NCBI GenBank assembly: GCA_921293015.1 | Contig: OV121088.1 | Location: forward strand, 18,637,645 to 18,701,644 | Source: Phorcus lineatus | Lineage: Eukaryota; Mollusca; Gastropoda; Trochida; Trochidae | Length of the DNA stretch: 64,000 nucleotides | Reading direction: 5' to 3' | Part shown: positions 36,920 through 61,900 of the stretch, in pieces | Layout: each line of letters starts with the position of its first letter | Position numbering within the stretch: the stretch's first letter is position 1 | Notes under the pieces: generated by a model | Database searches by the model: none | What the model was told of the DNA's origin: nothing | The model's input: only the letters and a program-made list of their open reading frames with translations | Translations under genes and position numbers: made by a program

Positions 36920-38160
36920 TATATCCCCCGCCAAAGGGAAAGGGTAGTTAAGGATACTAGTTGTGGAATATTGAACAGTGATCATGTTGTTTTTCTACAA
37001 ACAACCTTTAAGAAATCCTATGTTACGTTTCCATGGAAACGGGTAAAAATAAAAATGCAAAGAAGTTGAAAACCCCAAAAGGCACATCTCCGCATGATGC
37101 CTGTTGCACATACCAAGTTTCGTCGAGATAGGTCTCACAGTTTTGGAGTTGTGGTCCGGAAACGAAATCCTATGTTACGTTTCCATGGAAACGGGTAAAA
37201 ATAAAAATGCAAAGAAGTTGAAAACCCCAAAAGGCACATCTCCGCATGATGCCCGTTGCACATACCAAGTTTCGTCGAGCTAGGTCTCACAGTTTTGGAG
37301 TTGTGGTCCGGAAACGAAATCCTATGTTACGTTTCCATGGAAACGGGTAAAAATAAAAATGCAAAGAAGTTGAAAACCCCAAAAGGCACATCTCCGCATG
37401 ATGCCCGTTGCACATACCAAGTTTCGTCGAGCTAGGTCTCACAGTTTTGGAGTTGTGGTCCGGACACGAAATCCTATGTTACGTTTCCATGGAAACGGGT
37501 AAAAATAAAAATGCAAAGAAGTTGAAAACCCCAAAAGGCACATCTCCGCATGATGCCCGTTGCACATACCAAGTTTCGTCGAGCTAGGTCTCACAGTTTT
37601 GGAGTTGTGGTCCGGAAACGAAATCCTATGTTACGTTTCCATGGAAACGGGTAAAAATAAAAATGCAAAGAAGTTGAAAACCCCAAAAGGCACATCTCCA
37701 CATGATGCCCGTTGCACATTCCAAGTTTCGTCGAGTTAGGTCTCACCATTTTGGAGTTGTGCTCCGGAAACAAAATCCTATGTTACATTTCCATGGAAAC
37801 GGGTAAAAATAAAAATGCAAAGAAGTTGAAAACCCCAAAAGGCACATCTCCGCATGATGCCCGTTGCACATACCAAGTTTCGTCGAGCTAGGTCTCACAG
37901 TTTTGGAGTTGTGGTCCGGAAACGAAATCCTATGTTACGTTTCCATGGAAACGGGTAAAAATAAAAATGCAAAGAAGTTGAAAACCCCAAAAGGCATATC
38001 TCTGCATGATGCCCGTTGCACATACCAAGTTTCGTCGAGATAGGTTTCACCGTTTTGGAGTTGTGTTCCGGAAACATTATCGGGACGGACGGACGAACGG
38101 ACGGACGGAAGGACGCAGACCATTTCAATATCCCCCACCAACTACGTTGGGCGGGGGATA
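36920..38160. mobile_element. Pearl-like tandem-repeat element (possible non-autonomous Helentron/HINE)
   Basis: Structure, left to right: TATCCCCCGCCAAAGG at 36922; seven tandem units; an (ACGG)n tract at 38081..38115; and a terminal hairpin at 38129..38160 (TATCCCCCACCAAC...GTTGGGCGGGGGATA). The left end and the hairpin share the TATCCCCC motif. Tandem core repeats of about 150 bp, an ACGG microsatellite and a 3' palindrome are the described features of bivalve pearl/CvA elements, which have been linked to Helentron-derived non-autonomous elements. It has no coding capacity. It sits exactly between two DIRS copies. Confidence 0.7.
36985..38080. repeat. Seven tandem repeats with an exact 152-bp period
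   Basis: The palindrome GTTTCCATGGAAAC starts at 37027, 37179, 37331, 37483, 37635, 37787 (one mismatch) and 37939, each step exactly 152. Units differ by only a few bases, the sixth and last being the most diverged. Confidence 0.95.
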
Positions 38161-38212
38161 AAAAGGAATAAGGAACAATTACTTGTATTGTTAGTAATTA
38201 TTAGTAAACTTA

Positions 38213-38383
38213 CCTCTGGGATGAGCTGTGCCCCTTCTCTCTGTTCCCTGAACCTACCTACAGAAGACTGAAAATCTCTAATAAAAAAAACCTAAGTTAT
38301 ATTTACCTTTAGTGGTATGCACCTGTCCTTCTTCTATCTGGAGTTAACTCCCCTTGACCAGGTAGGTGGCAGCTTCACATTCT
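38213..38383. repeat. DIRS left inverted terminal repeat
   Basis: Runs from CTCTGGGATGAGCTGTGCCC through CCTGAACCTACCTACAGAAG to CAGCTTCACATTCTC. It is the exact complement, as far as I can read, of 44652..44821. Confidence 0.9.
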
Positions 38384-38458
38384 CGCCAAACAACCCGAAA
38401 CATCACCTGGAATCATGCGGGGAGGCATTAGTAAAACTTTACTAGGGCGGGCGTAATT

Positions 38459-38546
38459 CGCTCATCCCAGAGGTAAGTTTACTAATAATTACTAACAATA
38501 CAAGTAATTGTTCCTAATTATTGGCGTAAACATTCCCTCTGGGATG
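38459..38546. repeat. DIRS internal complementary region
   Basis: The first part, 38459..38513, is the complement of the left outer end (38170..38225). The second part, from ATTGGCGTAAACATTCC on, is the complement of the right outer end (44809..44838). This region is used to template the element ends when a circular intermediate is made. Confidence 0.9.
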
Positions 38547-38956
38547 AGCTGTGTCCCGAATTCCACATAAAGGAGGATGGGATCCAGCTCAATGTTGAGG
38601 GAATATTCACACCAATAACCCTTTAACTTACTGCTCAATCCTAGGAAACTTAGTTGATTGACTATTGATCCTTATGATACAGTATTATCTTCTCCTTATA
38701 ATTATGCATTTCTACCTCAAAACCTATACTTATAGAATGCATCAATTTCCGCCACCGGTCAAGGTAGATCAGTAAAACAACCACACCACCACTTAGTACT
38801 TTATTAGTATACAATCAGCATATGACGTTATGACCTTACAATTGTTGGTTCAAAACCACCTATATTCGGTTAACACCCTAACCAGTGGTACTTTCCTCCC
38901 ACAATTGTGTTCTGATGGTTACATCTACATGACTTAACGCCTTTTACCTCCCGGCA

Positions 38957-39018
38957 GTGTGACGTCACTTCCGGTTCTATGACGTCACTTCCGGTTCTAT
39001 GACGTCACTTCCGGTACA
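38957..39018. promoter_or_regulatory. Three tandem TGACGTCACTTCCGG boxes in the DIRS 3' region
   Basis: TGACGTCACTTCCGG occurs three times at a 20-bp period. TGACGTCA is the full palindromic CRE/ATF site and ACTTCCGG the ETS core on the other strand. Fragment A has two related copies near 36465..36500. Regulatory function is inferred from motif only. Confidence 0.5.
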
Positions 39019-39275
39019 TAGGCCCGTCTAAAGGCTCTCAAACGTCATATCCTGAGATGAAATTAGTCAGGTGCATAATTCGTGGTTTACCACTCCACAA
39101 CACGTGATTGACTTTCCTTTACCCCACGTTAGATTTGGCCCTCCACCGCCATTCTCTATAATGGAGAAGCCTCACCTTCCCAATAACAGTTCTTGCAGAT
39201 ATCCAGGTCAATCCGTCCTTCGTCCTTGACGACCCGTCCCCCCCCTTTCTTTTTTTGCTTTACTTGCAAAAGGGG

Positions 39276-40115
39276 TTAAGCTTGTGTTAACTGTTGGGCA
39301 GCTATCAATGGTCCTAGTTCATGTAGGCCCTCCATCGATGAAGCTATGTCCCGTAGATATGATGATATAAAAGTATTTGAACCTTTCCATTGGCAAGCCG
39401 CCACTAGGCGATCAATAGAGACAGACTTCCATGCCGCTAACGAGGTAGCTAGAGCACGAATCTCGTGCGGCGAAAACTTCTGGTTTACTGTTTCCTGATC
39501 TATAGATTGGTAGGCAAACGCGATCGTCTTCCTTAGCCATGAAGCTATGGTATTCTTTGATATCTCTGTATCGACTGCGGTCTTGCAAGATAAGAACAGT
39601 CTCCTCCTTGCACGCCTAAATGATGCTGTCCTTTGTAGATACCAGCGGAGAGCTCTAACTGGACACAATAATCTTGACTTGTCAGACCGAGATGATGAAC
39701 TTGGCAGAGCAGGAATCCTATAAACTCTCGATCCCAAAGGCCCTAATGCTGTTGACTGATTTTTTGCTACGAATTCAGGTAACGCCCGACAAGACACCTC
39801 CTTGTATCCCTCTGAGAATCTTATTGAGGAATTATCAATTGCATGAAGTTCGGATACTCTAGCTGCTGAGGCAAAGGCAAGAAGAAACGCTGTCTTGAAT
39901 GCTAGAAACTTTAAACTTGCAGCCTGCATAGGCTCGTATGGCGGTTTTAACAAGGATTGCAACACAATACACAAATCCCATCTTGGAAAAACTGAAGGTG
40001 CTGATAAGTCCTTGATTTGGAAAGATCTGAGAAGTTTATGTAAAGAGACATTAGACCCTACTGATAAACCTTGAATGTCACACACTGAGGCGACGGTAAC
40101 CCTCGATCGTACCAT
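39276..40115 (-). CDS. DIRS tyrosine recombinase, catalytic part
   Basis: 279 codons. All tyrosine recombinase catalytic positions are visible: Arg86 in ASAARVSEL, His217 and Arg220 in SPHEIRAL, Trp243 in the place of the second His, and Tyr253 in ISSYLRD. It cuts and rejoins DNA through a 3'-phosphotyrosine and should integrate the circular DIRS DNA. The N-terminal core-binding domain is in a different frame, ending at the stop at 40078; the two parts overlap at 40078..40115, where a one-base frame difference separates GYR from ASVCDIQG. As drawn, the recombinase is therefore split. The apparent start at 40115 is not a true start. Confidence 0.85.
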   Translation of the reverse strand: MVRSRVTVASVCDIQGLSVGSNVSLHKLLRSFQIKDLSAPSVFPRWDLCIVLQSLLKPPYEPMQAASLKFLAFKTAFLLAFASAARVSELHAIDNSSIRFSEGYKEVSCRALPEFVAKNQSTALGPLGSRVYRIPALPSSSSRSDKSRLLCPVRALRWYLQRTASFRRARRRLFLSCKTAVDTEISKNTIASWLRKTIAFAYQSIDQETVNQKFSPHEIRALATSLAAWKSVSIDRLVAACQWKGSNTFISSYLRDIASSMEGLHELGPLIAAQQLTQA

Positions 40116-42261
40116 GCTTGAGTCCTTTTTCCACCCGTAAGTATAACAAAAAATCTGCTACCATAGGTATCGAAATGTCCTGGTTTAACAGCTGTCGCTG
40201 GACTCTCCATCTATGAAACACGTTCCACTTAGCGTCATACAACTTGGCGGTGGAAGGTCTGATCGCCTTAATGATTGCATCAGAGGGACCCTCGCTGAAT
40301 CCCTTCTCTCTGAGGGATCTCCTGACAATCTCCACACGTGTAGATTCAGTGCCGCTAGGTTCTTGTGTGTCGCACCCGAGTGAGGTTGGATAAGCAGATT
40401 GTGCCACTGAGGTAGCTGTAGAGGGACATCTGTCAGTAGATCCAGTAAATTTGGGAACCAAGTTCTCGTGGGCCACGCTGGCGCTACTAGATAAACTCGA
40501 CACCTGTGCATCGCAATCTTTGCCAGAACATCCGGAATAATCTTTATCGGTGGAAAAGCATATGCTATCATTCCTTCCCATGAGATCGACAGCGCATCCA
40601 CTGCCCAGGCTAAAGGATCGGGAATCGGACTGACGAAAGTTGAGATCCGAAAGTTCCTGCTTGTTGCAAAGAGGTCTATTGCTGGATACTCCCATGTCTG
40701 ACTTATGAGTTGCACAGCTTCCTGATGAAGTGTCCATTCCGTGGAAATTACTTGGCCCTTGCGGGACAGAGAATCGGCTAATACATTTAGTCTGCCCGGA
40801 ATGTGCCTTGCCCTTAAAACCATCCTGGCCTGATCCACGATCCCGAAAAGCAAGCGAGTGAGATCCATCAATTCTGTCGAACGAGTTCCCCCTTGCTTGT
40901 TCACGTAAGATACCACCGTTGAATTGTCTGTGGCTATCATCACATTCACTCCGTAAAGACGCCGCCACCAGTGACGTACTGCCTTTATGACTGCTAACAT
41001 CTCTAGTCTGTTTATGTGAAAAGTCGACTCCTGTTGAGACCAAACCCCCTGGATCTGAAACTGGTCGAGATGAGCCCCCCAGCCTTCCTGGGAAGCGTCT
41101 GTAAATATCGTGACTTCGGGCGGAGGCTCCCTGAATCTCGATCCCCCCATCACATTGTACTCCTTGGTCCACCACATCAACTCGTGATACACTACACGAG
41201 GGCACGTTATGCGTTCTTCCAATGGATAATGCCTGTTGTCGTTTATCCAAACCTGGAAGTGGCGTAGGTTTAAACGACCCCTGTAAGTAAATGCCTGGAT
41301 CGACGTGAGTGATCCCAGCAGAGACATCCATCTCCTCACAGGCGCAGAACCTTGCTGTAGTAGGTTGAATATTGATTCCTTGACAACCAGCCAACGATCC
41401 AAAATGGGCAAGATGAGACCTCGATCTGCATCCAGCACTGCTCCCAGAAACTTGATCCTGGAAGTTGGGGTTAGTTCTGACTTCTCTGGGTGTACTATCC
41501 AGCCCAGATGCGTAAACACGTGGATGATAAACTTTGTCTGTTGCAAGAGGACGTCTGTCTGAACATGTCTGCTCAGAAAATCGTCGAGATAACCATGAAT
41601 CGCCACGCCTCGAATATGAAGAAACTGTAGCACTGGTTTTAGAACCATCGTGAATAGCCATGGGGCGATCGATACTCCGAACGGAAGAACTCGAAACTGG
41701 AATCTCCTGCCGTTCACAGCAAAACGAAGGTACTTCCTGGAATGAGGATGAATAGGGATATGAAGATATGCGTCCTTCAAGTCCATACTGACAAACTTGG
41801 AATGAGGATGAATTAGCTTCCTGACATTTGCTAGCGATTCCATCGTGAACTTTGGAGGTCTTAACAAAAAATTCTTGTTTAATATCTTCAGATCTATAAT
41901 CATTCTCATCTGCCCTGAATCGCGCTTGGGCACCAGGAACACTGGAGAATAAAATCCCCGGGACGAGTCCAGGGGGGACAACTCCACAACTGCCTCCTTC
42001 AGCAGTAGTTGATCTATCGCGAGCATCGCTGCCTCCAGCTGTGGCCCCTGTAGATGATATCTCCTTCCCATCGGGAATACCGCTAAGGGTGGGCGCACTT
42101 GAAACTGCAGTTGATAACCCTCCGAAACTACAGAGTTTATCCAGGGATCTCGCGTGATCTGTTTCCAATTCTCGGCGTAGCACTGTAGCCGACCCCCTAC
42201 GGGAGAGGATACGACTGGAAGTTGAAAGGGAAAATCTAGATTCAAGTCCGTGGGCATGCAA
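40078..42261 (-). CDS. DIRS overlapping frame: recombinase N-terminal part at its 3' end
   Basis: A stop-free frame of 727 codons overlaps the RT/RNase H ORF in another frame. Only its last 90 or so codons look functional: KAIRPSTAKLYDAKWNVFHR through GTIEGYR is the SAM-like core-binding domain of a DIRS recombinase. The upstream 600 codons are Ser/Arg-rich and resemble a shadow of the RT frame, although in DIRS elements the recombinase ORF is known to overlap the RT ORF extensively. The real start is unclear. Confidence 0.5.
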   Translation of the reverse strand: MHAHGLESRFSLSTSSRILSRRGSATVLRRELETDHARSLDKLCSFGGLSTAVSSAPTLSGIPDGKEISSTGATAGGSDARDRSTTAEGGSCGVVPPGLVPGILFSSVPGAQARFRADENDYRSEDIKQEFFVKTSKVHDGIASKCQEANSSSFQVCQYGLEGRISSYPYSSSFQEVPSFCCERQEIPVSSSSVRSIDRPMAIHDGSKTSATVSSYSRRGDSWLSRRFSEQTCSDRRPLATDKVYHPRVYASGLDSTPREVRTNPNFQDQVSGSSAGCRSRSHLAHFGSLAGCQGINIQPTTARFCACEEMDVSAGITHVDPGIYLQGSFKPTPLPGLDKRQQALSIGRTHNVPSCSVSRVDVVDQGVQCDGGIEIQGASARSHDIYRRFPGRLGGSSRPVSDPGGLVSTGVDFSHKQTRDVSSHKGSTSLVAASLRSECDDSHRQFNGGILREQARGNSFDRIDGSHSLAFRDRGSGQDGFKGKAHSGQTKCISRFSVPQGPSNFHGMDTSSGSCATHKSDMGVSSNRPLCNKQELSDLNFRQSDSRSFSLGSGCAVDLMGRNDSICFSTDKDYSGCSGKDCDAQVSSLSSSASVAHENLVPKFTGSTDRCPSTATSVAQSAYPTSLGCDTQEPSGTESTRVEIVRRSLREKGFSEGPSDAIIKAIRPSTAKLYDAKWNVFHRWRVQRQLLNQDISIPMVADFLLYLRVEKGLKHGTIEGYRRLSV

Positions 42262-42488
42262 TTGTCGAAAGGGTCTGATAGTGTCAAATCGGCTTGTGTA
42301 GAGTCAACGACGTCTGGGGGGAGCGGAAGATCCCCTCGATCCTCTACCACCTCTGCCACGAAAATTAGCCGACGGCGGGTTGTTTCTTGGCTGCTGATAT
42401 TGATTCGTTGCCTGACGACCCTTGTTCTGAGCCTCAGCTCTGTCGAAAGCTGATTGATGGAGGGGGGAACGGGTCTGAAGACTTGCAC
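40185..42488 (-). CDS. DIRS reverse transcriptase / RNase H polyprotein
   Basis: 767 codons, uninterrupted. Reverse transcriptase: first catalytic Asp236 in SMDLKDAYLHIP, the LPFGVSIAPWLF block at about 269..279, and the YLDD box at 300..303. RNase H: Asp464 (FTDAS), Glu496 (LEML), Asp521 (TDNS) and Asp572 (LADSLS), a full D-E-D-D set. A C-terminal block, AIDLFATSRN...WAVDALS...YAFPPIK, is the conserved DIRS region after RNase H and may derive from an adenine methyltransferase (AFPP recalls its NPP motif; inference). It makes the cDNA of the element. It overlaps ORF1 by 185 nt upstream and the recombinase frame downstream. No inactivating change was seen. Confidence 0.9.
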   Translation of the reverse strand: MQVFRPVPPSINQLSTELRLRTRVVRQRINISSQETTRRRLIFVAEVVEDRGDLPLPPDVVDSTQADLTLSDPFDNCMPTDLNLDFPFQLPVVSSPVGGRLQCYAENWKQITRDPWINSVVSEGYQLQFQVRPPLAVFPMGRRYHLQGPQLEAAMLAIDQLLLKEAVVELSPLDSSRGFYSPVFLVPKRDSGQMRMIIDLKILNKNFLLRPPKFTMESLANVRKLIHPHSKFVSMDLKDAYLHIPIHPHSRKYLRFAVNGRRFQFRVLPFGVSIAPWLFTMVLKPVLQFLHIRGVAIHGYLDDFLSRHVQTDVLLQQTKFIIHVFTHLGWIVHPEKSELTPTSRIKFLGAVLDADRGLILPILDRWLVVKESIFNLLQQGSAPVRRWMSLLGSLTSIQAFTYRGRLNLRHFQVWINDNRHYPLEERITCPRVVYHELMWWTKEYNVMGGSRFREPPPEVTIFTDASQEGWGAHLDQFQIQGVWSQQESTFHINRLEMLAVIKAVRHWWRRLYGVNVMIATDNSTVVSYVNKQGGTRSTELMDLTRLLFGIVDQARMVLRARHIPGRLNVLADSLSRKGQVISTEWTLHQEAVQLISQTWEYPAIDLFATSRNFRISTFVSPIPDPLAWAVDALSISWEGMIAYAFPPIKIIPDVLAKIAMHRCRVYLVAPAWPTRTWFPNLLDLLTDVPLQLPQWHNLLIQPHSGATHKNLAALNLHVWRLSGDPSERRDSARVPLMQSLRRSDLPPPSCMTLSGTCFIDGESSDSC

Positions 42489-44433
42489 TACCTCTTCTGC
42501 CCCTGGGGGCGCCGCGACCCCTGGTCTGGGCCAAGAGAGCCGCCGTCAATCTGGAGTTAAGATTGCGTGAAGTCTGAGCCTCCTGGGAAGATATGGCCTG
42601 GTCGCATTTCCCGTTAAACATGGATTCCGAGTTCACGGGTTGCTGGAAGAGATCCTCCTTGGAATCCTGGGGCAAGTTCCTCACTCCTTCCAACATATGA
42701 GCCCGTTCTAGAGCCGTCAACCGTCCGATCGTACCGAGTTGAGCGTGAGTAGCGTCACCGACGGCCAGATAAATTACATCCAAGAATGAATGGGCTAGGG
42801 CCACCTCCTCTGCACTCATAACCACCAGCGATTGTGGCTTCACACCTTTATAATCCTGGAAGGTAGGAGGCAACAGCTGTCTGACTCCCGCTGCAAACCA
42901 GTTAATATAAGATAAGATGTCCACCGAACTCCTGGCTGAAGCATCGATGTCCTTAACATCCTTGCGTGTGAGAACCAACTTTGCCATAGCTTTCCTCTGA
43001 AGTGCTCTCGCGTCCAACCGCCCAAAATCCCTGTCAAGATCGGGAGCAGAGGCGGGAAACATCCGATCGTGGATCACATAAGCCTGTTTTTGCTGTGTCC
43101 TAGGCAAACTAGAAACATCTCTGGCCTTAGATAAGGTGTTATTGACTAAGTCCAACCCCGTCTTGACAACTGAAGAATGAGGCAAAGATCTCTTGGGGGG
43201 TCGAGCCGTTGGAAGAAACCCTGAAGTTCCCAATTCCTCCGGAAGATCTTGAGAATCCTCTTGCTCAAACGAAGACGGAACGGTACATGGCTTCAGCTTG
43301 TATAATTTCTCAAGTTTTTCCACAAAGGTCCATTCCGGTACAAGGTCCGGCCCCGACACATCCGCCGGCGGAATAACAATCATCCCTTCACGAGTGTCCA
43401 ACTTGGCATCCATGGACAAGTCATTCCCCGAATTATCATCCGTAATTATCGGCAAAATCGGCGGGTTGAAAACGTCAACAAACTCTGTTTGCCTCTGTTG
43501 TTGTTGACCTGGCACTTGAGAGTCATCGTGACCTAAGCCCAGCGGGAAGCCCGAGCCGTCCGTGCGCTGAGTAGCTGTCAACTCGCCCGGCCGCCTGCCG
43601 CACGTGCTAACCGGGCCGGTAATAGATGGGTCTGACCCACATTCCGTACCACGGTTATCAATCACGGGCTGATTGCCCAGCACGTGTGTCCCGGCCTTTA
43701 CCGACCCAGTGGTGGGAGGGAGAAGGTTATCGAAGTCACGACCGTGCGGTCCGATCAACCCAGCCCCACTTGCGGCGCTGGGAAGAGAGCGGACACTGAT
43801 GCTCCCTTGGTCACCATGACCTGACAAGGCCGGCAGGCCCCCAGGGGGTAAACACTGCCGCTTGGGGGGGAGATCGTTAACCCTAACCTCCGAACTCCCG
43901 CCGTTGGGGTCGGCAGCTCGTTTACCAGCCGTAGTCTTAATCTCAGAGGACTGCCTAGCACCGGAACGGGATTCATTCCCATGGGGGGAAGCGGAATTAC
44001 CCGAGGTACCCGAACGGGGCTTAGATCTACCGAGGGATTTCTTTAAGTCTTTAATCTTAGCTTCATTACGATCTTCAAGATCCTTGAAAGACTTAGCAAA
44101 AGAGTCAACTAGATCCTGCTTGAAAGAGGAAAGGAGAGCACTCAAATCAAGGGGTTTAGCTTGGGGAGCTACTGAAGTGGCTGGCAAAATCTGAGATGAT
44201 CCTACTGAATCCTCCTTAGAAATAGCAGACGATTTAGATTTGGAAGGAGTAGAACGGGGTTTCTTAGATCTAATCTCAAACATCTTTATCCACTCATCGT
44301 CAGGTAAATCCTTACACATAAGACAGCGTGCTGCCATGGAGCAAATAGAATCCTTGTCACAAAGAAAGCACAACGAGTGGGGATCCCTATCTGACATAAA
44401 ACGTTGGCAATTGACACACTTACGTTGAGACAT
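42304..44433 (-). CDS. DIRS ORF1, gag-like protein
   Basis: 709 codons, uninterrupted. The N-terminus has a Cys/His cluster, C6-x2-C9, H19, C22-x2-C25, C31, C37-x2-C40, probably zinc-binding. A Lys/Ser-rich region and a predicted coiled stretch around 120 (KSFKDLEDRNEAKIKDLKKS) follow, then a conserved central block (about 440..610) and an Arg/Gly-rich tail (GRGAPRGRRG, FRGRGGRGSRG) suited to nucleic-acid binding. By position it is the structural protein that packages element RNA; this is inferred, since DIRS ORF1 proteins are poorly conserved. Its start is 219 bases inside the right terminal repeat. Confidence 0.85.
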   Translation of the reverse strand: MSQRKCVNCQRFMSDRDPHSLCFLCDKDSICSMAARCLMCKDLPDDEWIKMFEIRSKKPRSTPSKSKSSAISKEDSVGSSQILPATSVAPQAKPLDLSALLSSFKQDLVDSFAKSFKDLEDRNEAKIKDLKKSLGRSKPRSGTSGNSASPHGNESRSGARQSSEIKTTAGKRAADPNGGSSEVRVNDLPPKRQCLPPGGLPALSGHGDQGSISVRSLPSAASGAGLIGPHGRDFDNLLPPTTGSVKAGTHVLGNQPVIDNRGTECGSDPSITGPVSTCGRRPGELTATQRTDGSGFPLGLGHDDSQVPGQQQQRQTEFVDVFNPPILPIITDDNSGNDLSMDAKLDTREGMIVIPPADVSGPDLVPEWTFVEKLEKLYKLKPCTVPSSFEQEDSQDLPEELGTSGFLPTARPPKRSLPHSSVVKTGLDLVNNTLSKARDVSSLPRTQQKQAYVIHDRMFPASAPDLDRDFGRLDARALQRKAMAKLVLTRKDVKDIDASARSSVDILSYINWFAAGVRQLLPPTFQDYKGVKPQSLVVMSAEEVALAHSFLDVIYLAVGDATHAQLGTIGRLTALERAHMLEGVRNLPQDSKEDLFQQPVNSESMFNGKCDQAISSQEAQTSRNLNSRLTAALLAQTRGRGAPRGRRGSASLQTRSPLHQSAFDRAEAQNKGRQATNQYQQPRNNPPSANFRGRGGRGSRGSSAPPRRR

Positions 44434-44651
44434 AGTGGTTACTTCGCGGAAAACGCCGATGTCACACAGGAAAAAAATTACAAGTCACAAAAAAATCACA
44501 AAATTTCACAAATAAACACAATGCGATTGTCCAAAGACCCAATGTCGATGTCACATACCCTTAAATTCACAGGAAATCCAAGTAGCACATGTAGAAGCAC
44601 AAAAGAAATTCAGTCTCCTGAAGTAGCTGCTGAACACATGGGCTACAGAAG

Positions 44652-44821
44652 AGAATGTGAAGCTGCCACCTACCTGGTCAAGGGGAGTTAACTCCAGATA
44701 GAAGAAGGACAGGTGCATACCACTAAAGGTAAATATAACTTAGGTTTTTTTTATTAGAGATTTTCAGTCTTCTGTAGGTAGGTTCAGGGAACAGAGAGAA
44801 GGGGCACAGCTCATCCCAGAG
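44652..44821. repeat. DIRS right inverted terminal repeat
   Basis: Complement of 38213..38383. Followed by an outer extension AATGTTTACGCCAATAATT that differs from the left extension, as expected for DIRS. Promoter activity is likely here because it is 5' of ORF1, but no motif was pinned down. Confidence 0.9.
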
Positions 44822-44849
44822 GGAATGTTTACGCCAATAATTTTTACAG

Positions 44850-47190
44850 ATTGCGTAGGCTCATAGTTGCTGATCCTTGTTGGATTAGAGATAGGTATCA
44901 CATCCTCATAATTAACCATCGATCCGTGATGGGTACAATAAGGCCTCGGTCTGCATCCAATACAGCACCCAGATACTTGATCCTTGATGTGGGAGTCAGT
45001 TCCGATTTCTCCAAGTGAACTAGCCAACCTATGTGGGTAAAAACGTGTATCATAATCTTGGTCTGTTGCAGAAGAATATCTGTCCGAACATGTCTCCCCA
45101 GGAAGTTGTCGAGAAACCCTTGAGTTGCCTCGGATGTGCAGAAGGTATAGAAATGGTTTCAACCCTATCATGAATTCCCATGGTACTACTGAGACCCCGA
45201 ACGGAAGTACTCAGAATTGGAACCGCCTGTCGTTCAATGCGAAACGAAGATACATCTGGGAATGAGGATGGATAAGAATATGCAGATGGATAAGAATATG
45301 CAGATAAGTGTCTTTCTGGTCCAAGCTGACAAACTTGGATCGAGGATGAATCAGCTTCGTGACGTTGGACAAAGACTCCATGGTGAACTTTGGTGATCTT
45401 GTCAAAAACTCCTTGTTCAATATCTTTAGGTCGTTAATCATCCTCATATCTCCTGTGTCACGCTTGAGGACTAGAAAATCTGGGGAGTGGAACTCCAGAG
45501 AGTTGTCCAGGGGGGAAAAACTCTATAATTGCCTCCTTCAGCAAAAATTGTTCTATCACAATTATCGCTGCGTCCAAACGCCGGTATTGTAGAAAATACC
45601 TCCTTCCCATAGGATATACTGCTAAGGCTGGACGAGCATGGAATTGGAGCTGACAGCCGTCTGAAATCATTGACTTTATCCAAGGATCTTGAGTGATCTG
45701 TTTCCTATTCTGAGCGGAGCGTTGCAGCCATCCCCCCATTGTGAAGGGAACGACTGCAAGTTGAAATTTGAAATCTAGATTCAAGTCCATGGGCATGCGC
45801 ATGTTGAAAGGGTCTGATAGTGTCGAAACTGCAGGGTAAAAAGTCAACGACGTCTGGGGAAGGCAGAAGACCCCTTCAACCTCTACTTCCTCTGCATCGG
45901 AAATAAGAAGTTGGAAGGTTGTTCCTCAACTGTTGATTTTGCGTTACATCCCCTTGACGATTCTTGTGTCGAGAGTTCGCTCTCTCAAAAGTTGGGTGAT
46001 GGAGGGGGAGTCGGGTCTGAGGGTTGGGATAACCTCTTCTGCCCCTGGGGGCACCACGGCTCCTGTTGTGGGCTATGAGAGCCGCCATAAACTAAGAGAT
46101 GAGATTACGAGTGGTCTGAGCTTCTTGTGAATTAATAGCCTGACTACACTGGCCGTTTAACATAGACTTTGATTTAAAAGGCTGTTGAAAGAGATCCTCT
46201 CTTGAATGCTGCGGAAGAGTCCTAATCCCCTCCTTCATATGAGCATGCTCCAATGCAGTCAAGCAACCTATGGTATCAAGTTGAGCTTGGGTGGGGTCAC
46301 TAACTGCAAATAGATCACGTCCAGGAAGGTGTGGGCTAAGTTGAGGCGCCTAGTGGAGCACAGGCACTCTCACTAAATAGGTCACCACGACCTGTCAAGG
46401 CCGGCAGGCCCCCAGAGGGTAAACATTGCCACCCGGGTTTGCGATCATTCACCCTTACTTCTGTACTCCCACCGTTGGGTTGGCAGCTCACATACCAGCT
46501 GTAGTCTTAACCTCAGCGGACTCCTTAGCTATGGAACAGGAGTCATTCTTGCAGGGGGAAGCAGAGTTACACAAACCTCCCGAACGGGATTAAGACTCGC
46601 TGAGAGATTTCTTCAAATCCTGGAGTTTGGTTGAGGATCTTTAAACGATTGATAAAAGGGACCAGATCAAGGGAGTTAGCTGTATTTACCATCCAAGACA
46701 AAGGAATTTGCGAATTCAAGGCCGAATCTTCTGACACAAAAGTAGCCGACTTAGTCTTAGAAGGAGCTGAACGGGAGTTTTTAGACCTTACTTCAAACAT
46801 CTTAATCCTTTCCTCATCTGGCATATCCATACACATGAGACATCGCGAAGTCATTGAGCAAATAGAGTCTTTATCACATAAGAAACATAAAGTCACAAGA
46901 AAACACACAAATAAACACAATGCGGTTGTCCTTAAACTAAATGCCGTTATCATATACCCTTTCAAATGTATGATCCAAGTAGAACATGGAGAAGCAGATG
47001 AATAAGTTCAGTCTCCTGTAAGCAGCTGCCAATATTCAATCCTGCAAGTATGATAAGTCTAACAGTAAGTTGAAGGTTTATTGATGTGAACATTCCCTCA
47101 ACATCGAGCTGTACCCCCTTCCTCCTGTATGTGAGATACGAGACACAGCTCAACTAAGAGGGGATGTTTACGCCAATAATTAGGAACAAT
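44850..47190 (-). pseudogene. DIRS copy 2: decayed 5' part (ORF1 and start of RT)
   Basis: The minus strand carries diverged pieces of the intact element in the same order: an ORF1 N-terminus near 46900..46760 (CFLCDKDSICSMTSRCLMC), an ORF1 Arg/Gly tail near 46090..45880, then the RT start (near 45800..45550) and RT palm at 45447..45211 (NDLKILNKEF, KFTMESLSNV), with a duplicated HILIH segment. Frame shifts and stops separate all pieces. RNase H and recombinase are missing; the RT stops near 44910, next to the end of the intact copy. It is older than the intact copy. Confidence 0.8.
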
Positions 47191-47500
47191 AACTTTTTAA
47201 CAATGTATTGCTAGTAATTTTTAGTAAAATTAATTAGCTCTGCGATGAGCAAATTTTCACCCACCCGAGAAAGATTTTACTCATGCCTCCCTGCATGATT
47301 CCAGGGGATGTTTCATGATGGGATAAGAGAATGTGAAGCTGCCACCTACTGTGCCAAGGGGAGATAACTTCAAGCTGAGGAGGGAGCTGCAGACCACTAA
47401 TGGCAATTATAATTAAAACGTTTCTGTCTTCTGTAGGTAGGTTCAGGGAACAGAGAAAGGGGGGACAGCTCCTCCCATGCCAATAATTCAAATATGCATT
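47070..47500 (+). repeat. DIRS end fragment in inverted orientation
   Basis: Aligns, reverse-complemented, to the left terminal repeat and internal complementary region of the intact copy (38206..38640): GAGAATGTGAAGCTGCCACC near 47330, CTTCTGTAGGTAGGTTCAGG near 47430, and GATGTTTACGCCAATAATTA near 47165. It is diverged and probably belongs to a further lost copy. Confidence 0.65.
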
Positions 47501-49690
47501 ATCCAATGGGCGGCTTATTTCCTTTTGATCTTTCCGCAATGATAAATCATGTAGCAATAAAACTCAATCTATAATTATTACGTCATGAATTTATCACCAA
47601 AACTTATTTCCGACGTTCTGATTCGGCAATCGGGAAGGAAAAGTAGGTAGTTCGGAGTTCTAATGCGCATATCCTACTGTCAGAGAAAACTTGATCTTGA
47701 TGATGTCATCTAATGATATGCAATACTCTCCCACACGTGCATGTGTGCTTCCTTGTGCGCTGGTCAAATATTCGTTGTATGCATTATGGGTGAATACTGT
47801 AAATCATCTAAATGAATATCAAAAGTGTTGAAATCCACCCATCCCGCATCTGTTGATTCTGAACACAGCAATCACACAATTTTACGTGACACATTGGATT
47901 GAGGGTCAGGGTAACTTTAGGGGGATATATTTCAGAAAATGTTGTATCACACGATTATGATGTGTCTTAATATGAGCAACACAAACTAGCGAAAGCATTA
48001 ATAATAATTTGTTTTTTCTTTTAAGAAATATTATGGGATAGGGACCAACAATTTTTTAACAATGCACAGCGAGTCAGTTGATCAATAAAAGTCCGGGAGT
48101 CGTCGTAAAACATCTCATTTCATTTATTTAAGTTTATTTATGATGGCCAAATTGGTATCCAATGTTAAATAGTCTTTAGTACTGTGCGCCAAAAAAAGTT
48201 GTACCAAAGATAAGTTCGAAACACTCATAATTTAAACAAACAGATAGACCTTTTCTTTGTCCAGATTTTTGCAGAAAGAAATCGAAAATGAAGAGTTGTG
48301 TTGTTTTAGCTACGTTATCAATATGCCGATACCACTATTGTAATTCGACATGGTTGACTTAGATATTTTTTTTCATATGGGAGCAAGATATTAGAAATTG
48401 CCACTTGTGCTTGAGTTATTTGCATACGAACCCTAATAGAAACAAAAGAACAGCTTTTTATCGTATGCATGATAAATTGCTTAAATATTTTGTTAAAAGT
48501 GGTTATTTTACGAATGCTTCGCGTTACAACTGTTTAATGTTAAAACAGTTTAACACTTTAAAATGACTTGTCCCTTTCATATTCAGGGGAGGTAAGTCCC
48601 TTCGTGTCAGACACACATATTTGAATATGCAGATAAGGGTAAACTAATATCAGGGGCGTAGGAACAGGGGGGGGGGGCTTGTGGGGGCTTAGCCCCCCCA
48701 CTTTTTTTCGAAATGTTTTTTTTTTTCAAAATGACTATTTTTCCCTTTCTACTACATATTTCCCAATAACTGGTCTAGTATTGTTACAAAACAGTTACTA
48801 TGCACTACTTTGAGGGTAGTTCTAAAACTACTCTGAGGGTAGAACTAAAACATCCAATCAAACAAGGAATTAAACTGACTTCAGTATTATGTCCTAATTG
48901 ATGATAAGATGGGATAAGCAAAATTTCAATTCAAACCCCCCCCCCCCCCCCCCCAAAACAACAGCTAACAGTAAAGGCGTTTTCAGGCAATAAAGTACGT
49001 TTCCCCTACGAATTATGAGGTAAACAGTTAGCTGTCTTCTGATGAGTTGTTTTTTTTATCAGGAAAGAGTAAAAGAATTAGGTTTCTATGGTTTTCTGTT
49101 TTTGATCCGAACTGCCTAGGAAAAGGGCAGTTATAGGGCGGAGCTAGCAACATCTGGCCGACGACCTTGAATCATTTCAACATTGTTTCATATTTAGGAA
49201 TGTAGCCAGTGATCAAAGGAAAGGAAGTCGCTCGGTGACGACAGGCATCAAAACAAAAATATTACCCGACACTTCACTCTTTCTCATTTGTTTAAAACAA
49301 CAAATATCGATCTAATCGTGAAACGCAACAAACAGTTTTAAGTCATCACTGATAATAGGAATTTAATTACGTCCCGTAAAACTACCAATTGGCACTACAA
49401 ATTTGGCGCTTGACAGGGCATCAAGGGTCAGCATTCTTCTTCCGACTGATTCAAAAGTCGATAATCACTTAGAGAAATGATGTCAGGTGGCATAGAGCAA
49501 AAGGTTACCCATTGGATAAAACAGATACATGATTGACACAAGTGGGTGTATACGAAATATCAGCTTGCTATCACTCACTCCACAACACCACAAACAAACC
49601 ATTGCTAAGACACCTTAAAGGCGTGGGGTAATTTTTAACGAAAAAGCAGAAAATGGTAAAAATGCAACAGATGTCCTAGCACAACCATTA
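47501..49690. other. Unassigned AT-rich DNA with G-run and C-run
   Basis: No gene recognised. A run of 11 G at 48667..48677 is followed by a small hairpin (GGGGGCTTAGCCCCC), and 19 C occur at 48936..48954. Otherwise nothing notable. Confidence 0.5.
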
Positions 49691-50754: not shown

Positions 50755-51485
50755 TCTACAGCCCCCAATATGCACCAAGTTCAAATTGTTTCCATGGAAA
50801 CCAAGTAAAATGAAAAATCAAGAACAACTAAAGTAGCAAAAGGCACCACCCAAGCACTAGATCTATCCACATACCAAGCTTAGTAAAATAATACTCATTA
50901 GATTTTTAGATATCGGTTGGAAAACTACCCTACCCCCATATGCACAAAGTTGAAATCGTTTCCATGAAAACCTGAAAAATATTAAAAAATTGAACCAAAG
51001 TAGCAAAAGGCACCTCTCCATCACTAGATCTAACCACATACCAAGTTTCGAACAAAAATATTGAACAGTTTTTTAGATATGGCCCAGAAACGAAAGCATC
51101 CCCCTACATGCACCTAGTTCAAATTGTCTCCATGGAAACTAGAAAAAAAATCAGAATAACCAAAATAGCAAAAGGCACCACTCCATTTCTAGACCTAACC
51201 ACAAAGCAAGTTTCATAAAAAAATATTGAACGGTTTTTGTGATATGGCCCGGAAACAGAGCCTACCCCCAATTTGCACTAAGTTCAATTTGTTTCCATGG
51301 CAGCCAGAAAAAAAATTCAGATAAACTAAAATAGCAAATGGCACCACCCCACCATTAGACCTAACCATATACCAAGTTTCATAAAAAATACTATTGAATG
51401 GTTTTTAAATTCGGAATTACGGAACCACGTAAGGAACATTATTGAAAACATTATGTCTGCCGCAAAGCTTTGCGGGGGACATAAT
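50755..51485. mobile_element. Tandem-repeat element, family B (four units, terminal hairpin)
   Basis: Palindrome cores GTTTCCATGGAAAC or variants start at 50788, 50958, 51126 and 51291 (period 165 to 170). Units also share AGTAGCAAAAGGCACC, ACATACCAAG and CCxGAAACxxA blocks. The element ends in a hairpin, ATGTCTGCCGCAAAG/CTTTGCGGGGGACAT, at 51453..51482, with CCGCAAAGCTTTGCGG a perfect palindrome. Same design as the 36920 element, different sequence. Confidence 0.75.
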
Positions 51486-53052
51486 TTTAAAAAAACAGCT
51501 TTATTGACTTTCAAAAATGTTCTCCATGATACTGACATGACACCATGACGTATTATATTTTGTATCTTGGAGCAGTATTCACAAAGGCCTATGGCTTGTT
51601 TACCAATCAAATTCTTCATTGAAATAAATATTTTTTAATGGATTTAAGTTGAGGTTTCTGAGGTCAAAGGACTGCTACATCAACTCACTGTGTATATATA
51701 ACATTCAACTGAAAACTATAAACAGTGAAATTCATAAAAAGATTTAAGGTCCATTGTTGACAAATGTATCATCTGTGTGATGCTACCATGTTTAGGTTGG
51801 GAGATAAGCTCTTGACACCACGACATCTTCAAATTCAGTTGAAAATCTTAAAATTCTGAAAAAAGAAGTTGAAAATCTAAAAATATTTCTAGTGTAAGCG
51901 ACCAAAGAATGCAAAAGCAAATCATCACATCATAGTGATTTGATTTAAGTTCAATGGAAAATGTTTATAACTCCATGTTTGTTCACAAGAAAAAGGTGCC
52001 TGTTATATGTGTCAGAAAAAGTAATCATATGATATGAAAGAATAAAAATCTAGCCATTTAACAAACAAAATTTTATTCAGATACGTTTCACTTCTTTTGT
52101 GTGTTTGCATTTATAAAATTTTGGTATGTTGGTGTTAAAAACCATGTTACATTTTACTGAGAAATAAAGTGAATATTGTTCAGCCCATTCTTTCAAGCCA
52201 ACTGGCCATACTTTCATTGTTAGCCTTTAGGTACAAGTCACTTGTCACAGCACCATGAGATGTCAAACCCTCAAATTCTGGAAAAACACAAATTCAACAA
52301 AGGAGACTTAATAACAAAATCTTGTCAGTGTTAACTGCAAATGACCTACAGAGAAAAGAAGCATTTGATTAACAGGTTGAACTCAAAAGACCCAAATGAG
52401 TTCCAAATTAGTATGATAGCCTTATCATGCAAAGTAAAGAGTATATTGATGTGAGCGAGAGTAGCACTTGGAACAACCAATTGTTTTTTCAAGAAACTTT
52501 AAATTTATCACATATCTTCGAGACAAAGGCTATACAGTTGTTTTTGGCAACTTATGTTGTAATTTCTAAAAATGTCAACATGATTAATCTTTCTTTGAAG
52601 AGATTTGTCACAAAATCAAGTCAAGAGTGATAAAATCAGTGAAATAATCCTACGAGTCCCAGAGCATCACAACTATGTTGGGATGCTTAAATTTTATATA
52701 CAAACAAAATAAGATTTTCTTCATACAGTCAGTGGCATACCAAAGAAGTTGAAAATGTAAAGAATTGTCTAGGGATCATAAAAATCTCATTTGTTACATG
52801 AATTCTGAGCTATGAAGGAAACAAAACACTTTAAGTGTGAAAGCTGGGGTATTGATAACGAAAATGTTCCCAATATTTGAAATATTAACATTGGAATCAT
52901 TTACATAAATATTATTTCATTTAGATATTTTTGACATCATGGCTTTATAAAGAAATAATCACAAATCATATACTTAGGTACTCAAGTTTTAAGGTGTCAT
53001 GAATTTGTAAATGAGGTAAGTAAATGTAATCATTCTAATATAATTTAATTGA

Positions 53053-58900: not shown

Positions 58901-61900
58901 AGAGACCCTCTTTCACAGTATGTATAACCTAAATCCTATCAAACATTGTAAAATTTTATTTGGTCATAAAGACAAATATATTGCCTTCATGTGTAGTCTG
59001 TCCATGTATAATGTGCTTATCTATCTATAGAATTACAAGCTTTATACATCTGGAAATAAAGACAATTTTCAAAGTGAGTTTTACAGCGGGATTAAGTCTG
59101 TCGCCCAAATGCAATGGGCATTATCGTTTCTATTGGGCAATTAGTCTCGCATGCAAGACTGTTGGGTTGGAATGTAATCAGGCTATATTACCATTTATGT
59201 TTTGCAGTAGAAATCTTTTCTTGTGTACAGCATTTTATAATACAATTTATTTCACAGTAATCAGCAATGAATAATCTTCATTTCAGTATACAAAAGCATA
59301 TGCATGATCAGTATTTATATGATTTTAAAAGAAATTTGTCAGATGAGAGTACAAATCATTCTAAACATAATTTGTAATAAATATCATCCAGAGCAACTAT
59401 TTGTCTTCATTTGCATTTTACTTTTGCTCTTGTTCACTCAGAATTTATTGAGTTACAGCGCTCAAATTAAAGACAAGTTTACAATATCTAATGAAACCAT
59501 TGTAGATGAGACAGGAATTCCATTTAAAGTGTCAGATACAAATCAACCATTTGTTTACAGGACCAACAGATTAGAATTGTAAGTATGATGACTGTTTATT
59601 TACCAGCTTTGCCTTGTAAACACACCATATACAAAAATACAGTTGTTTCTTTTGGTGCTGAAAAATTCAGCCACTTGTGCTAATTACGCATTAAAGGAAA
59701 CCATGAAATTAATGCAAGCCCAAGAATCTCTATCATATAATTAAATGCACCATACTCTTAGATTTTTTCAGGTACATGAAATGTAACATTTCCATATGTT
59801 GAAGTTGGCAATCAGAGAATGAAAAGGAGTTGAAAATTGCCGCCTAATTAAGTTAGACAAGTCTTGGTCAGATTCATTTCTAGGATGGTACAGTTCCGTG
59901 AGAAGGATGGTACAGTTCCGTGAGAAGGATGGTACAGTTCCGTGAGAAGGATGGTACAGCTACGTGAGAAGGAAGGCCACAAAAGCAGCCAGTGAGGCAG
60001 GTGGCAACTAGTTGAGTCCAAGACAATCCCGGCTGACTTGTCATTCATTTTGACCAGACCAAGATTGTACCAGTCTTGAGTTGGATATTAACGACTTAGG
60101 GTGCAAAGCAAGCTGATGTGATCGGCGTGGTGGACTAACGTGAGATCACCATGCTTCTCAGCCATTCCACTTACTATTAAACTTACTCCCTCCCACAAGT
60201 TACCCATCAAGGGACTACAGACAAGTGTCAGGTCAATGGCAACTTTCCAGGTCATTGGCACATGCCACATTCAGCCAATCACTGGAGTACTGAGGATACT
60301 ACGCTTGCCTATGTGGATAATGTGCTAGTAAAAATATTGAATGGTTTTTGAGATATGGACCGGAAACAAAAGCAGTTCGGAATTACTGAATTACCGAATT
60401 TAGGAACCATGGACGGAACTGAAAACATTGTCTCCCGGGGGACATAAAAACAAAAAACAAAGATAGGGCAAACACAAAACTCCAAACGCAAAAACACACA
60501 CAAAAAAAGACACAAAGACCCCACATGCCCACACTGCAAACAAACAGAAACAATCACTCACATACTTACACAGTGCACACACTACAACACGCAGCGCAAA
60601 ACCCTAAACACTCTTACAACACAACATCAACCCACACAACAAACCACAAATATTTCACGCATTAGCAACCTATATCAAAGAAATGGGCCTTCTGGCGCGT
60701 ATCTAAAACCACATACCACATAACCCCTTCTTTCTCCTCCTCTAATTACATACTCCATTCCTAATTGCAAAATTTCAAAATTAAAATTTGGGTTTATGGC
60801 TTCTATGGGACAGTGCAAAATCAGCTTTGCTTTAAACGCTTGTAAAATCTCAAACCTCATAATCATAATCAACGTTTTCTGTCCTCTTTTATGAAATTTC
60901 AAAACTAGACATGGTCATACTACAAGTAAAGAAGTGAGCACAGCTCACATACCCCGGCTTCAAACTATAGTCTGGCTTTCATTGTTGGTCTAACCCTCAA
61001 AAGGTTCACCAGGGGACCATTGTCGATAAGTGTATTAAGTTTGTTGAAGCTCGCATTTATAGTTTAGGAGATATGCTAAGGAAAAGCTCTTTGTCACGTA
61101 GTCATTGTTTTAATAATGTTTCCATGGAAACAGCAAAAAATAAAAATAATTTGTTGGTCTAACCTTCAAAAGGCACACCTATGGGTCATGGTTGATAAGT
61201 GTATGAAGTTTTGTTAAGATAGCATGTATAGTTTAGAAGATATACTCCAGACACCGGACTTTGTTACTGTTTTAGTGATCATGTTTCCATGGAAACCACA
61301 AAAAATAAAAATCATTTGTTGGTCTAACCCTCAAAAGGCACATCTAGGGATCATGGTTGATAAGTGTATAAAGTTTGGTGAAGATAGCATGTATAGTTTA
61401 GGAGATATGCTCAGGACAAAGGACTTGGTTATAGAGTCACTGTTTTAGTCATGTTTCCATGGAAACCCTAAAAATAATAATCTTTTGTTGGTCTAACCCT
61501 AAAAAGGCACATCTAGGGATCATGGTTGATAAGTGTATTAAAATGCATACCTTTAATAATGTACCCTGTTAACAAACACATTTTTGGCATTAATTTAGTT
61601 CTGACACTAATTTCATGATTTACAGTATTCAACAACGTAAGGGTTATGGTTTGCATAATGGTAATGTCAGACTGAATCACAGTACTCACCTCTTGTGCTG
61701 CATGTTCCGCCATTGTTGCAGTCCCCTGGGCAGAGAGTCTGAATGATAGCAGCTGGGAGGGATAGCGTGGTGCCTGTCTGGTCCCAGGTAGCTGTGTTCC
61801 TTGACACTGCACTCAGACAACGCTGCTTCACGTCTTCCAGTGTGCGCTCAGCCCATCTTATGTTGTCGGTCAACTGGACAAAAGAAGTGCTTATATCAGT

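Follow-up and report, generated by a model that had tools for sequence, protein, structure and literature searches.

What kind of element carries three different tandem arrays that share one short palindrome, and what is that palindrome? The question is raised by a 64,000-nucleotide stretch of the Phorcus lineatus genome (the window, below), in which an earlier note, made from the letters alone, had described three arrays with a perfect palindrome, or a near copy of it, once per unit. Both descriptions were borne out, the arrays having periods of 152, 165 and 169 bp and the 14-letter palindrome GTTTCCATGGAAAC occurring once in each unit of A, B and C:

37012–38075, + strand: tandem array A, period 152 bp, 7.0 copies, 97% matches
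37027 + 152n (37027–37952), + strand: the seven array A palindromes, six exact and one (37787) with one mismatch
50762–51406, + strand: tandem array B, period about 165 bp, 3.8 copies, 77% matches
50788 (exact), 50958 (one mismatch), 51126 (one) and 51291 (two), + strand: array B palindromes, from the window motif scan
60982–61538, + strand: tandem array C, period about 169 bp, 3.3 copies, 81% matches
61118, 61283 and 61453, + strand: array C palindromes, all exact

Ten of the 14 array palindromes are thus exact, three have one mismatch and one has two. Across the window, 18 matches to the palindrome were found at up to three mismatches, whereas 100 shuffles averaged 4.34 and reached 12 at most; 14 of the 18 lie inside the arrays, and the remaining four each have three mismatches. 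A second block, AAAAGGCAC, occurs exactly at 12 places in the window, every one within arrays A, B and C; 12 of the 14 palindrome units therefore have it, beginning 44–50 bp past the palindrome start. The spacing of 'about 45 to 60 bp' given earlier was thus nearly right.

That the arrays do not match each other along most of their length was only half correct. Profiles of one family match another over two units, with best E values against array A of 2.5e-20 for B and 5.7e-22 for C, and the consensus alignments A/B, A/C and B/C were each better than all 1000 shuffles; the between-family profile that accompanied these alignments was built from 12 of the 14 units, two A units being omitted. When the blocks served as anchors, no likeness was detectable in the two inner stretches, for which 153 to 1783 of 2000 shuffles did as well, while the stretch past AAGTTT was alike in A/B (0 of 2000 shuffles as good) and A/C (2 of 2000) but not in B/C (237 of 2000). 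With the blocks masked (score 0), 888, 195 and 1223 of 2000 shuffles were as good for A/B, A/C and B/C respectively, and hence similarity was not demonstrated outside the masked blocks. The AAGTTT block, which had been noticed in A and B, occupies the same alignment column in C. The units of A, B and C are collinear and probably homologous, and these alignments argue for a common ancestral unit of A/B and of A/C and, more weakly, of B/C.

The structures flanking the arrays point to the nature of the elements. Because of them, we class A, B and C, with considerable confidence, as HINEs (non-autonomous Helentrons) of the sort that in bivalves carries tandem repeats, as pearl, CvA and Cg_HINE do:

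36921–38160, − strand: HINE-like element A, minimum extent as bounded by the subterminal inverted repeat on either side
36921–36932, + strand: element A left subterminal inverted repeat ATATCCCCCGCC, of which the final 11 bases are the inverse of 38150–38160
38083–38115, + strand: GGAC microsatellite adjoining array A, from the tandem repeat listing
38129–38160, + strand: element A fold-back TATCCCCCACC..GGCGGGGGATA, the right subterminal inverted repeat plus a complementary repeat, 11-bp arms with one mismatch
50549–51482, − strand (putative orientation): HINE-like element B, from hairpin to subterminal repeat
50549–50565, + strand: element B hairpin TGTGCATGTGATGCACA with arms of 7 bp, separated by 3 bp from the subterminal repeat on its inner side
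50569–50579, + strand: element B left subterminal repeat ATGTCCCCTTC, agreeing with the inverted right repeat at 9 of 11 positions (by eye)
51460–51475, + strand: element B perfect 16-bp palindrome CCGCAAAGCTTTGCGG, overlapping the right subterminal repeat (by eye)
51472–51482, + strand: element B right subterminal repeat GCGGGGGACAT (by eye)
51745–51819, + strand: possible isolated piece of a unit like those of C, E 1.4e-4
60330–60445, − strand: remnant D, consisting of the end of a single unit resembling those of B and of GTCTCCCGGGGGACAT (60430–60445, by eye), a right end like that of B
60934–60958, + strand: element C hairpin GTGAGCACAGCTCAC (60934–60948) followed directly by ATACCCCGGC, the sole terminal structure found for C

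Subterminal inverted repeats, 11–15 bp long in HINEs, are perfect over 11 bp in A (TATCCCCCGCC at 36922, inverted at 38150–38160), agree at 9 of 11 positions in B and are represented by one end in C. The complementary inverted repeat that HINEs carry near the 5′ subterminal repeat corresponds to the fold-back of A and to the 16-bp palindrome of B, in agreement with the hairpin ends that had been reported, with no positions given, for two of the elements; more hairpins stand beside B and C. The palindrome of B was absent from our hairpin scan because the scan required a loop of at least 3 and this palindrome is loopless; the right end of B also matches itself inverted over 42 bp (51447–51488). 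A short hairpin outside the 3′ subterminal repeat is present in B, whose left end consists of the hairpin plus ATGTCCCC, and in C (GTGAGCACAGCTCAC plus ATACCCCGG); in A, a scan from 36850 found no outer hairpin with arms of at least 7 just outside the left repeat. A microsatellite adjoins the array in A, from whose side the minus orientation of this element is tentatively assigned, and TRF listed none for B and C. A central satDNA-like array, often though not always present in HINEs, occurs in all three, and none of them contains an ATG/GTG/TTG open reading frame of at least 150 aa. All these features together occur in none of the elements. No fold-back was found for C, which shows one end only; such one-sided ends are described as frequent in oyster (PMC8268682). 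T-runs stand outside the right ends of A, B and D, and HINEs are described as favouring T-rich sites (PMC4067079). Remnant D matches two B units at 60330–60374 (92% over 39 bp and 87% over 45 bp) and has no palindrome remaining. A hairpin adjoining a C-run was found four times in the window (mean 0.85, maximum 3 in 40 shuffles), two of these matches (33211 and 54579) being unrelated to the elements. Of the 45 longest window frames, the 15 scanned gave no match to a Helentron/Helitron protein. For 10 window frames Pfam yielded F5/8 type C and EGF matches alone, weak and all under cut-off, and neither Rfam families at gathering score nor tRNAs were found.

The elements are recognisable as a kind already known, the HINE, and their fold-backs correspond to its subterminal structures. 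Cg_HINE of Crassostrea gigas is described as likewise having subterminal inverted repeats, a fold-back and a central satDNA-like array, with a GTCC/GGAC-type microsatellite on one side and a palindrome on the other, in the same order as in element A, and with families whose units are alike in two short segments only and otherwise dissimilar (PMC7492417). It differs in host, and the portion of its description available to us mentions no GTTNCCATGGNAAC block, the comparison being one of descriptions, not letters (PMC7492417). The pearl elements CvA, CvE and CvG of oysters and scallops are by description likewise modular with an array (PMC5874043, PMC11136912), which in CvA holds 2–6 copies of a 156-bp core repeat, against seven copies in element A. 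Again by description, the BIV160/Cg170 satellites of bivalves have divergent monomers with two conserved motifs and are kin to the CvA repeats (PMC5139131), and Cg170-type monomers measure 164–166 bp in C. angulata (PMC11136912). DINE-1 and HINE-Mo, from Drosophila and a mite, are reported to share the terminal architecture and the preference for T-rich insertion sites in these other hosts (PMC4067079).

Similar arrays were found on a contig whose record names a symbiont of Bathymodiolus but which we take for mussel DNA. There, GTTTCCATGGCAAC and variants of it lie 74–87 bp ahead of a CAAGTTTC-type block, and because of these variants the shared block is better given as GTTNCCATGGNAAC. The perfect palindrome, earlier regarded as the constant motif, must thus be corrected to this block, the one kept across two hosts. 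The block AAAAGGCAC is kept less widely, with one exact copy on the mussel contig, in an array without the palindrome. As to ends, TGTGTCTGTAAGACACA and ATGCCCCCGC stand ahead of the mussel array with the X-box (the RFX site considered below), GTGAGCTAATGCTCAC and ATACCCCCGC ahead of the neighbouring array without it, and a hairpin adjoining a C-run occurs three times, equal to the maximum of 40 shuffles (3; mean 0.725). The core TA[CT][ACG]A[AG]GTTTC, a pattern picked after inspection that does not match C units, has an X-box 79–84 bp upstream in eight of its nine window occurrences, with at most one of 12 fixed letters changed. On the mussel contig, an exact X-box lies 74–87 bp upstream of six of ten such cores, and one with two or three changes precedes two more; four of the six exact pairs are selected, since the contig was found by the X-box pair pattern. 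When eight of the nine mussel units were compared with the three consensus units, X-box left out, seven of the 24 comparisons were reached by at most 14 of 300 shuffles (best, M6107 against C, 2 of 300), so that homology outside the blocks is weakly supported between the two hosts. The pattern scan of genome contigs gave eight loci, all under bacterial record names, with HINE-like arrays seen in L007 only (L001 and L002 read in part; L003–L006 and L008 as site lists), and viral contigs gave no matches in the pattern scans.

Are the shared blocks, then, more constant than chance would have them? Between families, the palindrome and AAAAGGCAC blocks are far more alike than the remaining unit: 65 of the 144 ungapped columns of the A/B/C consensus alignment are invariant, including runs of 14 and 10, and of 100,000 column permutations 51 produced a run of 14 or more and none produced the two runs together. 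This supports the earlier proposal of one kind of element in which a few short motifs would be held more constant than the rest of the unit. Within families the signal for the palindrome is weak, with 5 of 196 cells differing, as compared with 128 of 1900 in the remaining unit (p 0.02 by Fisher's test, cells not independent; by family, 1.0 for A, 0.16 for B and 0.06 for C). The excess conservation that had been proposed as a genome-wide check for the palindrome and AAAAGGCAC was thus examined on the window plus one mussel contig. The palindrome might have no function, the blocks being left over from common ancestry or spread by recent short conversion between families, with their striking runs due to chance. 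The only mildly slower change of the palindrome within families, with no difference in family A, is in keeping with this, and little is known of the background rate since homology with the mussel units outside the blocks is weak; the permutation result and the nearly equal distance of the block from CAAGTTTC on the mussel contig speak against it, and we consider it somewhat unlikely.

Alternatively, the palindrome may be an X-box, to which a transcription factor of the host's RFX family would bind and so open or transcribe the elements in germ or other RFX-active cells; they would keep it for that, scattering X-boxes 150–170 bp apart. The nematode form of the X-box is GTHNCCATRGNAAC, which fits 11 of 14 window and seven of nine mussel sites and only four of the 16,384 perfect 14-mer palindromes. 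The loose form RYYNYY-N1-3-RRNRAC (PMC2375033) fits GTTTCCATGGAAAC, all 14 window sites and eight of nine mussel sites, but is a weak consensus, fitted by 128 of the 16,384 palindromes and with 50,000 matches reported in the fly genome, whereas the strict form RTNRCC-N1-3-RGYAAC fits no window site and one of nine mussel sites, and GYTRYY-N1-3-RRHRAC fits one of 14 and seven of nine. Two unselected mussel variants (5836 and 6107) are changed at X-box free positions 11 or 4 only, yet copies 5613 and 5964 are changed at fixed positions. Palindromic X-boxes are reported as over-represented in dRFX-regulated genes (PMC2375033), the X-box has been called a long imperfect palindrome (PMC10393296), and RFX1/RFX3 are described as binding the D sequence of AAV, a parasite DNA with palindromic ends (PMC5760533). 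Nonetheless, the RFX motif was singled out after the fact from many factors, and we regard this reading as unlikely. The full 14-mer GTTTCCATGGAAAC was not found printed in the literature searched; a 13-letter piece of it occurs in PMC10943081 and PMC314469, and GTTACCATGGCAAC in PMC12881592. A search joining Helitron/Helentron and bivalve with RFX or X-box returned neither of the latter in any of the texts found. Among the matches listed for RFX or X-box together with repeats, a fish repeatome study (PMC12250356) has both 'rfx' and 'helitron'. We also consider it unlikely that mollusc tandem-repeat HINEs carry one RFX-type X-box per nucleosome-length unit, constant across families and hosts; if they did, these rolling-circle elements would depend on arrays of ciliary/germ-cell RFX sites and scatter them over the genome. 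The palindrome could instead serve array formation with no host factor, as a point of replication pause or template switch where units are gained and lost, a process that would itself maintain it. Array A, a whole number of units (7.0) starting 15 bp ahead of the palindrome, would fit; against this, array B starts 26 bp ahead of it, array C is broken off mid-unit at both sides and the mussel sites are imperfect palindromes. The DTC84 element of Donax trunculus is described as having a palindrome near its repeat junction and another mollusc satellite as having junctions within a palindrome, but for BIV160/Cg170 junctions no statistical link to the conserved motifs is reported (PMC5139131). How tandem repeats might form by way of a stem-loop is also discussed (PMC8268682). 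On balance, we hold a role in array formation to be improbable. We also weighed a CENP-B-box-like site for a pogo-transposase-related centromere protein. The CENP-B box consensus is TTCGNNNNANNCGGG, from which TTCCATGGAAACGGG, the palindrome plus the next bases, differs once in all seven A units; that sole difference falls in the TTCG core, which is fixed; no unit of B or C matches within one mismatch, and CGGG is absent at that place in B, C and eight aligned mussel units. Although a CENP-B-box-like motif is discussed for nematode satellite exchange (PMC5139131), we consider this reading highly improbable and reject it.

For the HINEs themselves, a Helentron Rep/helicase/endonuclease encoded elsewhere would act on the element ends, and the element would be copied by rolling-circle replication, its central array growing and shrinking through replication or recombination. 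The blocks would have stayed while the rest drifted: GTTNCCATGGNAAC and, some 74–87 bp on, a TAC-CAAGTTTC block, found in A, B and the mussel contig, C retaining only its AAGTTT. Their retention may be owed to some factor that binds them or acts on them. Transposition would depend on the ends, not on the palindrome, and the terminal structures account for mobilisation better than an internal palindrome does, as would follow from the element architecture described in PMC4067079.

HINE-type elements carry much of oyster satellite DNA, and Helitrons are reported to make up 8.7–12.6% of four oyster genomes (PMC11136912). If the conserved block binds a host factor, this would offer a concrete and cheaply testable reason for the persistence of the arrays, with a possible influence on neighbouring genes; if no factor is bound, the block pair would still be a signature by which such elements can be found and dated across species.

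Tandem Repeats Finder delimited three arrays in the window:

37012-38075: array A, 152 bp x 7.0 copies, 97% matches
50762-51406: array B, 165 bp x 3.8 copies, 77% matches
60982-61538: array C, 169 bp x 3.3 copies, 81% matches

The 14-bp palindrome GTTTCCATGGAAAC had 18 matches in the window at up to three mismatches (100 shuffles: mean 4.34, maximum 12). Of these, 14 were array copies, a single one to each unit; 10 were exact, three had one mismatch and one had two. All 12 exact copies of AAAAGGCAC in the window fell inside the arrays, 44-50 bp beyond the palindrome start, and the gap from AAAAGGCAC to AAGTTT was 29 bp in the A, B and C consensus units. The pattern of palindrome and AAAAGGCAC noted earlier is real and non-trivial. 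A separate tandem array of 13 copies of 64 bp (32-bp half-units), at 18634-19471, was unrelated by eye.

Mean between-family identity, from a profile built on 12 of the 14 units, was 0.45 over 170 columns, versus 0.94 in the palindrome and 0.96 in AAAAGGCAC. Invariant columns made up 65 of the 144 ungapped consensus columns, with runs of 14 and 10; on permuting the columns, a run of at least 14 arose in 51 of 100,000 trials, and runs of 14 and 10 jointly in 0 of 100,000. Within families the conservation excess of the palindrome was slight (differing cells 5/196 versus 128/1900 elsewhere; Fisher p 0.02 overall, and 1.0, 0.16 and 0.06 in A, B and C), and these p values are optimistic because cells share ancestry. 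The proposal that the motifs stayed constant while the remainder drifted holds between families of the window and, for the palindrome, slightly within them.

By sequence comparison, the three families appear to be related, unevenly so. Profile searches with doubled consensus units recovered array A with the B query (E = 2.5e-20, 2.7e-19, 1.2e-18, 8.5e-10) and the C query (5.7e-22, 3.8e-21, 2.6e-19, 3.6e-11), and the A query recovered arrays C (7e-14, 1.1e-11) and B (9.4e-9, 2.5e-7); the B query matched array C at 1.5e-5 and 0.001, and the C query reached array B no better than E = 1.1. Consensus alignment scores were 84 (A/B), 82 (A/C) and 54 (B/C), with null maxima of 43, 41 and 42 (1000 shuffles each), and with the palindrome removed 62, 58 and 32 (null maxima 40, 32 and 36), the last matched by 7/1000 shuffles. 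In a block-anchored test, two inner stretches were no closer than shuffles (153 to 1783 of 2000 equal or better); the stretch 3' of AAGTTT was similar in A/B (0/2000) and A/C (2/2000), with no similarity detected there in B/C (237/2000). With the four blocks masked and scored 0, none of the three pairs stood out. On these profile, consensus and anchored tests, the claim of the earlier note that the arrays are unmatched along most of their length is reasonable where the inner stretches are concerned, but incorrect if applied to the whole unit.

The flanks of the arrays carry the following features:

36922-36932: A, left subterminal repeat TATCCCCCGCC, with an inverted copy at 38150-38160
38083-38115: A, GGAC microsatellite (Tandem Repeats Finder)
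38129-38160: A, fold-back with 11-bp arms and one mismatch, including the inverted TATCCCCCGCC copy
50549-50565: B, left hairpin TGTGCATGTGATGCACA
50569: B, left ATGTCCCC, after hairpin TGTGCATGTGATGCACA
51460-51475: B, right 16-bp palindrome CCGCAAAGCTTTGCGG, by eye
51472-51482: B, right GCGGGGGACAT
60330-60445: remnant D, a B-like unit end and B-like right end
60934-60958: C, left end, GTGAGCACAGCTCAC then ATACCCCGG

The B right-end region with CCGCAAAGCTTTGCGG and GCGGGGGACAT gave an inverted self-match over 42 bp, D matched one B unit at 92% over 39 bp and a second at 87% over 45 bp, T-runs flanked A, B and D beyond their right ends, and array C was broken off mid-unit on both sides. HINEs (non-autonomous Helentron elements) are described in PMC7492417 and PMC4067079 with a subterminal inverted repeat, a complementary repeat and a microsatellite on one flank, a subterminal repeat with a palindrome at the opposite flank, and a satDNA-like array in between; PMC7492417 also has monomers with two common segments, dissimilar otherwise. 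The layout of A, B and C is the published one, except that no outer hairpin was found in A, no microsatellite in B or C, and no second end in C. Hairpins beside AT(N0-2)CCCC numbered four in the window (mean 0.85, maximum 3 in 40 shuffles retaining at least 98% of length), two of them (33211, 54579) unconnected with A, B, C or D. Judged by this layout, A, B and C are very probably HINEs, newly found members of an element kind already known.

Pfam searches of five long ORFs and 10 further frames, which covered 15 of the window's 45 longest stop-to-stop frames, gave no Helitron, Rep or helicase match; an autonomous partner, or remnants of one, may lie in the window. A solitary copy of the A subterminal repeat, ATATCCCCCGCC, occurs at 5995 with no adjoining array. 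Adjoining A on the minus strand (~38180-44484) is a DIRS-like retroelement with reverse transcriptase (RVT_1 3.8e-22) and RNase H domains; it also matched tyrosine recombinase weakly, at 6.6e-4, which is below cut-off. A second, broken relative has frames, by eye, at ~44767-47563.

Genome contigs were scanned for pairs of GTTNCCATGGNAAC sites one unit apart, which yielded eight loci. One, JACCHT010000024.1, comes from a genome named as symbiont of the mussel Bathymodiolus septemdierum, carries two reverse transcriptase frames (RVT_1 E 1.7e-13 and 9e-17) and HINE-like arrays, has a contig G+C of 0.30-0.39, and contains all seven GTTNCCATGGNAAC places of the ~2.4 Mb assembly; we infer that it is mussel host DNA. 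X-box here denotes the RFX binding-site motif, a candidate label for the palindrome-type block. Array ends in this contig were:

5274-5304: hairpin end TGTGTCTGTAAGACACA and ATGCCCCCGC, preceding the X-box array
6568: hairpin end GTGAGCTAATGCTCAC and ATACCCCCGC of a neighbouring 186-bp-unit array without X-box
7267: GGAC microsatellite of the same neighbouring array

Its three hairpins beside AT(N0-2)CCCC (shuffle mean 0.725) are alone unexceptional because three is also the shuffle maximum. The nine CCATGG sites of its arrays (GTTTCCATGGCAAC, five times, GTTTCCATGGTAAC, GTTACCATGGCAAC, ATTTCCATGGCAAC and GCTTCCATGGCAAA) are spread over two unit types with little else in common. Another array (3365-3881, by eye to ~4190) has CTACCAAGTTTC-type blocks and one AAAAGGCAC at 4059 but lacks an X-box; the blocks thus do not always occur together.

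The core TA[CT][ACG]A[AG]GTTTC, a post hoc choice, had nine matches in the window, none of them in C units, and 10 in the mussel contig. An X-box with at most one of 12 fixed letters changed lay 79-84 bp upstream of 8/9 window cores (six A units, two B units); in the mussel contig it lay 74-87 bp upstream, exact at 6/10 cores and with two or three changes at two more, and was out of register or absent at two (3482, 10986). Random 50-position windows held an X-box at up to three changes in 52/1500 and 63/1500 cases. The mussel contig was itself found through four of its six exact pairs, which are thus selected; the unselected ones are 5449 and 6107 (exact), 5613 (two changes) and a three-change site before 7643. 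BLAST with the mussel inter-X-box letters hit five places including its own, with an X-box (exact or one change) before four and absent at one.

Other palindromes were also seen. TGACGTCA, another regulator-like palindrome within repeats, CRE-like in form, recurs at 36462, 38959-39015, 5313 and 54592, and at 38960 sits in the 20-bp tandem repeat TGACGTCACTTCCGGTTCTA; a 32-bp hairpin, TGGTGACCTTGAAAATGAGGTCAAGGTCACCA, at 6476-6507 resembles a nuclear-receptor site. From the GTTNCCATGGNAAC scan, a contig labelled Pseudomonas MAG has GTTTCCATGGAAAC in a ~69-bp tandem repeat (1856-2319), apparently unrelated to the window elements, which means that repeats under a bacterial label can contain the palindrome too; another contig (260-930) has GTTCCCATGGGAAC palindromes, possibly parS-like sites, upstream of a frame with a ParA-like start, by eye.

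Among the papers searched, none was found to describe the shared palindrome block in these terms; the BIV160/Cg170 papers mention two conserved motifs, so the block may already be known.

As to what the palindrome may do, the loose X-box consensus given in PMC2375033 fits 14/14 window and 8/9 mussel sites, but the strict one 0/14 and 1/9. RFX proteins bind the terminal region of a parasite DNA, AAV (PMC5760533), which makes it conceivable that a mobile element would use RFX. In this reading, which we hold to be unlikely, GTTTCCATGGAAAC would be a candidate RFX-type X-box exploited by the elements. A CENP-B-like site is a very unlikely rival, with one core mismatch and in family A alone. That the palindrome takes part in array formation is likewise doubtful, and that it has no function and is plain leftover ancestry is a possibility somewhat on the unlikely side. 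The remaining probability goes to the palindrome being acted on by something unnamed.
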